This document shows, in pieces, positions 1-1,330 of a DNA stretch of 64,000 nucleotides (positions are counted from its first letter, which is position 1; each line of letters begins with the position of its first letter). Below the pieces are notes generated by a model. That model was not told where the DNA came from. It searched no databases and was given only the letters and a program-made list of their open reading frames with translations. This DNA comes from Spirochaetaceae bacterium (GTDB lineage: Bacteria > Spirochaetota > Spirochaetia > Treponematales > Rectinemataceae): positions 1-64,000 of the forward strand of contig JANXYQ010000067.1 of assembly GCA_025355995.1 (NCBI GenBank). The letters are read 5' to 3'. Made by a program: the position numbers and the translations under genes.

Positions 1-919
1 AGCGCTCGTAGCGGTAGACGGTGCCGAGCTCGGCCCACCGCAGGGGCAGCTCGCGGTAGGAGTGCCCCGAGTTGTTGTAGATCATGATATGGAAGGGGCA
101 GTTCATCGGCTTGACGTAGTAGTCGTCCTCGTCGATCTTCATCGGCGCGTACATGCCGGCCTTGTAGAAGCCGAGGTGGCCCGAGGTTTCCCAGAGCCAG
201 CTCTTGCCCATGTGGGGGGTGAAGAGGATCTCGTAGCCGTTCTTGTAATGCTCCTCGCGCCACCAGTTCTCCAGCTCGACGCGGAAACGGCCGCCCTTGG
301 GGTGCCAGTACACCAGGCCGGGACCTGCTTCCTCGTGGGTCGAGAAGAGGTCGAGCTCCTTCCCAAGCTTGCGGTGATCGCGCTTCTCGGCCTCATCGAG
401 CATCTTGAGGTGGGCCTCGAGCTCCGCCTTGCTCGCGAAACAATAGGCGTAGACGCGGGTGAGCATGGGCCGCTTCTCGTCGCCGTGCCAGTAGGCGCCG
501 GCCACCGCCCGGAGCTTGAAGGCGTCGGGCCTGATCTCGCGGGTGGTCGCGACGTGGGGCCCGCGGCAGAGATCGACGAAGCCGTCCTGCTCGTAGGTGG
601 AGATGGTGCCCTCGAGGGCCTCGATCAGCTCGAGCTTGAAAGGCTCGTGGGCGAAGAGCTTGCGCGCCTCGTCCTTCGATATCTCCCTGCGGACGAACTC
701 GGCGCCCGAGGCGATGATGCGGCGCATCTCTTTCTCGATCGCGGGCAGCTCCTCGGGCAGGACGGGCTTGGGAAACTGGAAGTCGTAATAGAACCCGTCG
801 TCTATCGCGGGGCCGATGCCGAGCTTGGTGCCCGGATAGAGCTTGAGCACGGCCTCGGCCATGACGTGCGAGGCCGAGTGGCGGATGGTTTCGACGGGGG
901 AAGGGGCGGACGACGACAT
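1..919 (-). CDS. thrS: threonyl-tRNA synthetase, N-terminal part (runs off left edge)
   Basis: Charges tRNA-Thr with threonine in the cytoplasm. The visible 306 residues show the editing-domain HSASH motif (HxxxH) at about residues 13-17, the second editing motif DLCRGPH, and the start of the class II catalytic domain with KPMNCPFHI, whose Cys is the family's zinc ligand for threonine recognition. The ATG at 917-919 follows a good ribosome site (GGAGGAAAG). From this start the protein has no N-terminal TGS domain and begins straight at the editing domain, as I recall for Borrelia ThrS; this supports a spirochaete origin. The rest of the catalytic domain and the anticodon-binding domain lie beyond base 1. 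A T-box leader precedes the gene, so expression should respond to uncharged tRNA-Thr. Confidence 0.96.
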   Translation of the reverse strand, partial: MSSSAPSPVETIRHSASHVMAEAVLKLYPGTKLGIGPAIDDGFYYDFQFPKPVLPEELPAIEKEMRRIIASGAEFVRREISKDEARKLFAHEPFKLELIEALEGTISTYEQDGFVDLCRGPHVATTREIRPDAFKLRAVAGAYWHGDEKRPMLTRVYAYCFASKAELEAHLKMLDEAEKRDHRKLGKELDLFSTHEEAGPGLVYWHPKGGRFRVELENWWREEHYKNGYEILFTPHMGKSWLWETSGHLGFYKAGMYAPMKIDEDDYYVKPMNCPFHIMIYNNSGHSYRELPLRWAELGTVYRYER

Positions 920-1294
920 AGCTTTCCTCCAAGGCGGAGCGATGGAAAAGGCGAGGCCCCCGACGGACAAGCGCCCGCACGGGAAGCCGCGAGGGCCCGC
1001 ATTCCGGCGGGGTCCCGCGCACCTTCTCGTAAGGACGAATCTCCCGGGGGCCTGACAGGCCGACCAGCGGAAACCCGCGGTACCACCTTACTTCGGCACC
1101 CCATGGCGGGGGCCGCGCTCATCGTCCGTGACGTGGACCCGACGGCCCCGAATACTTGAGTTCCTCGGGACGGCTCGGGAGTGGTTTTCGCGTTCGAATC
1201 CACCGGGGGCATCTCAGCCAAACGGCGCCGCCGCCGTTAGTGCTCCCCTCTCTGTCGGCGACCCTCGATCGCTACTCTTCTCCGTCTATGCCTT
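920..1294 (-). promoter_or_regulatory. T-box leader (tRNA-Thr sensing riboswitch) of thrS
   Basis: Read on the minus strand, the thrS leader contains the T-box family landmarks in the right order: GAGTA at 1277-1273, CAGAGAG at 1254-1248, a specifier ACC (Thr codon) at 1185-1183 followed by A and the usual CTCCCGAG, and the T-box AAGGTGGTACCGCGG at 1089-1075. The bulge TGGT can pair with the ACCA end of an uncharged tRNA. CGTCCTTA at 1037-1030 can pair with TAAGG of the T-box, giving the standard antiterminator. I see no clear U-tract terminator. Instead the thrS ribosome site can be folded into a small hairpin (CTCC/GGAG plus TTTC/GAAA, about 947-922), so control may be translational; that part is inference. 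Confidence 0.88.
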
Positions 1295-1300
1295 CACGGA

Positions 1301-1330
1301 AGTATCGCCAGGAAAGGCCGGAGCTGTCAA
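1301..1330 (-). promoter_or_regulatory. sigma-70 type promoter of the thrS T-box transcript
   Basis: On the minus strand TTGACA (1330-1325) and GATACT (1306-1301) are separated by 18 bases, predicting a start near 1294, just before stem I of the T-box. It sits directly after the stop of the upstream glycosyltransferase gene, so thrS has its own transcription unit. Confidence 0.6.

Follow-up and report, generated by a model that had tools for sequence, protein, structure and literature searches.

The analysed window is a stretch of 64,000 nucleotides at the start of its contig in a Spirochaetota MAG (4.5 Mb, 138 contigs, 95% complete), in keeping with the spirochaete-like genome recognised in the initial annotation. 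The N-terminal part of thrS lies at its left end on the minus strand and is truncated by the contig end. The encoded ThrS (2-919, minus strand) begins just ahead of the HxxxH editing motif, a short form shared by relatives of the same family, and no TGS domain was matched in it with Pfam. Upstream of the gene is a full-length T-box leader (1297-1030, minus strand) with the specifier ACC. The landmarks named in the initial annotation, GAGTA, CAGAGAG, the ACC specifier, the TGGT bulge, a matching antiterminator arm and a separate promoter, were all found on this strand (Table 1).

Table 1. Features of the thrS leader and the adjoining gene in the window
Feature	Position	Strand	Basis
Sigma-70-like promoter, TTGACA 1330-1325 / GATACT 1306-1301, 18-nt spacer	1301..1330	-	consensus scan
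Stem I (base GGC/GCC, GGAG/CUCC helix, GAGTA, CAGAGAG, GCTG)	1173..1291	-	RF00230, covarying helices 1-4
GAGTA	1277-1273	-	read from sequence
CAGAGAG	1254-1248	-	read from sequence
Specifier codon ACC (Thr), purine A1182 next	1183..1185	-	invariance; host tRNA-Thr(GGU)
Stem II with AAGTA S-turn-like segment	1141..1172	-	covarying helices 5-7
Stem III, flanked by purine string GAGCG ... AA	1092..1120	-	comparative fold; (near-)invariant in alignment
Antiterminator: A1 UAAGG/CCUUA, 7-nt bulge UGGUACC, A2 opening with G.U	1030..1090	-	MFE, RNAalifold
T-box sequence TAAGGTGGTACCGCGG	1090-1075	-	bulge TGGTACC at 1085-1079
UGGU tetranucleotide opposite tRNA 3' UCCA, final base opposite U73 (U.U)	1082..1085	-
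Antiterminator 3' arm TCGTCCTTA	1038-1030	-	folding
Terminator hairpin, including 3' arm 1038-1030	954..1053	-	-66.3 kcal/mol, covariation
Short U run past the terminator hairpin, CGCCTTTTCC	946..949	-	near-identical in same-genus relative G025 (L022)
Shine-Dalgarno (SD) GGAGGA	925..930	-	read from sequence
thrS N-terminal part, 306 codons, ATG 919, truncated by contig end	2..919	-	Pfam tRNA_SAD, tRNA-synt_2b

When the search was run with an E-value threshold, RF00230 covered 1297-1053 on the minus strand, from one end of the model to the other, at 69.9 bits (E 3.5e-15), and this was the single T-box found in the host genome. At the gathering cut-off of 93 bits zero matches were returned in the window, so standard annotation overlooks the T-box of the thrS leader. 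With the same search only two of the five matching control species exceeded 93 bits, and a score below the cut-off is therefore no mark of a false match. The empty result at the gathering cut-off, taken at first for a refutation of the T-box, is explained by a low-scoring match to the full model. An extra hairpin in helix A2 led Infernal to misplace the 3' arm of the antiterminator, whose correct position is given in Table 1. The minimum free energy of the whole leader was barely better than that of shuffled sequences (z -1.75), a measure that is uncertain for very GC-rich RNA.

An alignment was constructed from 22 thrS leaders of the host's GTDB family. The invariant or nearly invariant blocks were GGAGA.GAGTA, AGAG/GGAG, GAA.ACC.CTCC, CGAAG.AAGGTGG.ACCGCGG and TTCGTCCTT. 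RNAalifold, with no structure supplied, returned Stems I, II and III, A1, the 7-nt bulge and A2, and at 24 of the 48 consensus pairs both sides had changed in at least one sequence. The covariation score of Stems I-III and the antiterminator was 0.374 against 0.183 in shuffled alignments, a value reached in none of 500 shuffles, and it fell to 0.05-0.10 when the structure was slid. The terminal G.U pair of A2 was retained in all 22 leaders and the purine string GAGxG-Stem III-AA was invariant or nearly so; in known T-box structures both elements take part in reading the 3' end of the tRNA, and the flanks of Stem III match the described RRRxG-Stem III-AA motif (PMC7583486).

The specifier ACC was invariant in 22/22 family leaders while the bases on both flanks varied. 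The other frames considered (AAA, AAC, CCA and CAC) were ruled out, since ACC alone was invariant with variable flanks. A tRNA-Thr(GGU) is encoded in the host genome, in agreement with the specifier and with the gene. The promoter has 10 of 12 consensus positions (one found against 0.1 expected in shuffles), and a TTGACA/TTGACN hexamer was present at about the same distance 5' of Stem I in nearly all relatives viewed from families f1, f3 and f4, which belong to the window's order. The thrS leader is a genuine T-box, as the initial annotation had claimed: the RF00230 match, though under the gathering cut-off, the invariant Thr specifier and the comparative fold all bear this out, and the motifs are conserved in the thrS leaders of the family.

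Two mutually exclusive folds were obtained downstream of Stem III, and the 3' arm of the antiterminator is common to both. For RNA ending at this arm, the unconstrained MFE structure (-23.6 kcal/mol) coincided with the antiterminator. Once the full tail was included, the terminator was preferred, at -85.8 kcal/mol vs -71.5 kcal/mol with the antiterminator forced. On this folding model the antiterminator forms first and must then be held, which is the requirement of a switch. The terminator itself covaried among the 22 relatives (score 0.492 vs 0.237 shuffled, 0/500 shuffles). An earlier consensus scan had given no terminator on the leader strand because loops of only 3-8 were allowed, and this result was superseded by the comparative folding. 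The initial annotation had likewise seen no U-tract terminator. That statement holds for the U-tract, which is weak (CGCCTTTTCC), and fails for the hairpin, which is strong (-66 kcal/mol, 1053-954). In the window the U-tract is short and displaced, with 4 U in 10, and the tail in the window and in the same-genus relative reads CGCCTTTT. In that relative (G025), thrS downstream of position 1953 of L022 was found as two matches about 280 bases apart, which represents an insertion or a frameshift. Most family members carry U-rich tails (5-8 U in 10) 3' of the hairpin, and such tails were found elsewhere in the class too.

The covariation of the terminator, the U-rich tails of the relatives and the hardly changed accessibility of the Shine-Dalgarno sequence (predicted 0.05 vs 0.03 between the states, by folding calculation only) favor attenuation for the window leader, and we consider it probable that the T-box controls thrS through transcription attenuation. 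Further points in the same direction are the thrS gene downstream of nearly all family matches and the long Stem I, a feature linked to transcriptional T-boxes (PMC7583486). In the proposed mechanism, the RNA would start a few bases 5' of Stem I and the specifier ACC would pair with the GGU anticodon of tRNA-Thr. The 3' end of an uncharged tRNA would enter the UGGU bulge, held by three Watson-Crick pairs, the Stem III purine string and the A2 G.U sensor pair, and the antiterminator (1090-1030) would be stabilised, giving readthrough into thrS. With charged tRNA the antiterminator would lack this stabilisation and its 3' arm would be captured by the far more stable terminator (1053-954). We infer tRNA binding, termination at the weak U-tract and a response to threonine starvation from this model. 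Several observations were counted against attenuation: the U.U73 mismatch described below, which would weaken the contact with the tRNA end, the short displaced U-tract, the RF00230 score below gathering and the uncertainty of folding GC-rich RNA.

The initial annotation had suggested that the element may act on translation, since the ribosome site can be hidden in a hairpin. In such a mode the site would be hidden in the off state and exposed by uncharged tRNA-Thr. The weak U-tract of the window agrees with such a mode, and the SD is able to pair with CUUUUCC. However, the window SD was equally closed in both computed states, so that the hiding and freeing of the SD typical of class II was not found by the folding calculation, and the terminator covaries across a family in which most members have a good U-tract. 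Translational control of the window leader thus appears unlikely. The suggestion fits the f4 relatives better. In the f4 thrS T-boxes L054, L039 and L045 no terminator was found and the 3' arm lies near the SD, whose computed accessibility rose as the antiterminator formed (0.24 to 0.76, 0.28 to 0.87 and 0.38 to 0.78, respectively). This suggests that f4 members may use translational control and that the mechanism differs inside one order. The phylum seems to contain both transcriptional and translational T-boxes on one gene, thrS.

The bulge of the leader showed a mismatch to its presumed partner. The tetranucleotide is UGGU and the host tRNA-Thr carries U73, giving U.U73 instead of a fourth bulge pair; pairing of the last bulge base with the discriminator, a usual and not a defining trait of T-boxes, was not found in the thrS leader. 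No alternative host tRNA-Thr with a matching A73 was found, and all three tRNA-Thr genes detected end in U73. Likewise, tRNA-Thr(GGU) had U73 in 49/49 spirochaete genomes (29 and 20). The 66 spirochaete thrS T-boxes with mapped tails comprised 47 UGGU, 16 UGGA, 2 UGGC and 1 UGGG bulges. UGGU was also found in genus g62, whose family f12 otherwise has UGGA or UGGG, and in f18 beside an f20 with UGGA, suggesting a repeated change. The Bacillota thrS T-boxes found (n=15) had UGGA in 14 cases and UGGG in one, and all 28 readings of Bacillota tRNA-Thr gave U73. No p-value was attached to the UGGU/U73 pattern because related genomes are not independent.

The mismatch, together with the low RF00230 score and the weak U-tract, could also be read as the mark of a degraded relic that no longer switches. 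We regard this as very improbable, since landmarks, helices and promoter are conserved in the 22 relatives with compensatory changes and UGGU is kept in 34 of the 37 thrS T-boxes of f1, f3 and f4. According to TBDB (PMC7778990), the discriminator is Watson-Crick paired in the majority of T-boxes, the exceptions being Trp, where the pair is a wobble, and His; the spirochaete U.U belongs to neither. We tentatively propose, at somewhat less than even confidence, that the spirochaete thrS T-boxes are a variant that reads tRNA-Thr without discriminator pairing: U73 may have persisted as the bulge turned into UGGU, seemingly in more than one lineage (the order-level clade f1+f3+f4, g62 and f18), and the acceptor end may be recognised via three pairs and U.U. 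If so, an unpaired discriminator would tune sensitivity or relax the rule by which tRNA partners are assigned. The consistent U.U73 offers a natural test of the need for the fourth bulge pair, which has long been part of the recognition rule. A second T-box was observed in G003, a genome of the same family, upstream of aspS (L011:1501-1751, plus strand), with the specifier GAC and a UGGC bulge that would match G73, the base usual for tRNA-Asp.

RF00230 matches were widespread among the relatives. In the host's GTDB family 25 of 30 genomes matched, including all 16 of good quality. A sample of the class gave matches in 20/40 genomes, 8 of them above the cut-off, and under stricter filters 72 of 393 genomes of the phylum matched, 25 above the cut-off. 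ThrS was encoded directly downstream at nearly all loci of the family and at most loci phylum-wide. In other phyla most sampled genomes were without a match; Bacillota and Anaerolineae had many. Surveys could miss spirochaete T-boxes because GC-rich members fall under the Rfam cut-off.

The initial annotation had left the choice between a transfer and an overlooked lineage. In a quick ThrS tree, in which the deep branches were weak, the T-box-bearing spirochaetes lay apart from Bacillota and were largely grouped by family, with SH-aLRT values of 98 for f1+f3+f4 and 100 for f1+f3. The spread in the class and this tree indicate an overlooked lineage rather than a one-off transfer, and they speak for a T-box present of old in Spirochaetia, with losses. 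That thrS was recently acquired by horizontal transfer from Bacillota or Chloroflexota, both rich in T-boxes, is hardly credible against the broad presence in the class and the family-wise grouping of ThrS outside Bacillota, even with an RNA that is itself too short for dating.

Compared with class I T-boxes (RF00230, the Bacillota thrS type), the window leader shares the long Stem I, Thr specifier, Stems II and III, UGGN bulge, A2 G.U, terminator/antiterminator switch and the gene thrS. It differs from the Bacillota thrS T-box in its spirochaete host, the extra A2 hairpin, the short U-tract and the UGGU bulge set against U73, whereas Bacillota combine UGGA or UGGG with U73 tRNAs. An insertion in A2, described for class II T-boxes (PMC7583486) such as actinobacterial ileS, is common to the window leader, and the computed SD switching of the f4 members also resembles class II; what separates the window leader from class II is its long Stem I, its conserved terminator and an SD whose computed accessibility does not switch.

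A survey of 2008 reported no T-boxes in six Spirochaetes genomes (Wels 2008, PMC2494555), and T-boxes were later given as limited to Firmicutes, Actinobacteria, Chloroflexi and Thermus/Deinococcus, plus Geobacter (Sun 2013, PMC3766115). A 2023 paper named the TPP riboswitch as the only one characterised in spirochaetes (PMC10319736). These reports are consistent with the remark in the initial annotation that a T-box is not known to have been described in Spirochaetota. The two surveys consulted list no T-box from the phylum, a result confined to these papers and short of proof that none has been reported. The reach of T-boxes gains a phylum, which bears on their origin in Firmicutes or earlier.

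Other genes were also found downstream of spirochaete matches. Those at L035, L183 and L196 precede fusion genes resembling a helix-turn-helix/cupin regulator and an AMP-forming ligase, and a T-box core was checked in L035 and L196. Further spirochaete T-boxes lie before trpB-like (L179), tryptophanase-like (L031) and acyl-CoA ligase-like (L028, L206) genes, named from their translations alone. Outside the usual phyla, matches over the cut-off were found in Nitrospira defluvii (G440, one) and Poribacteria (G447, two).
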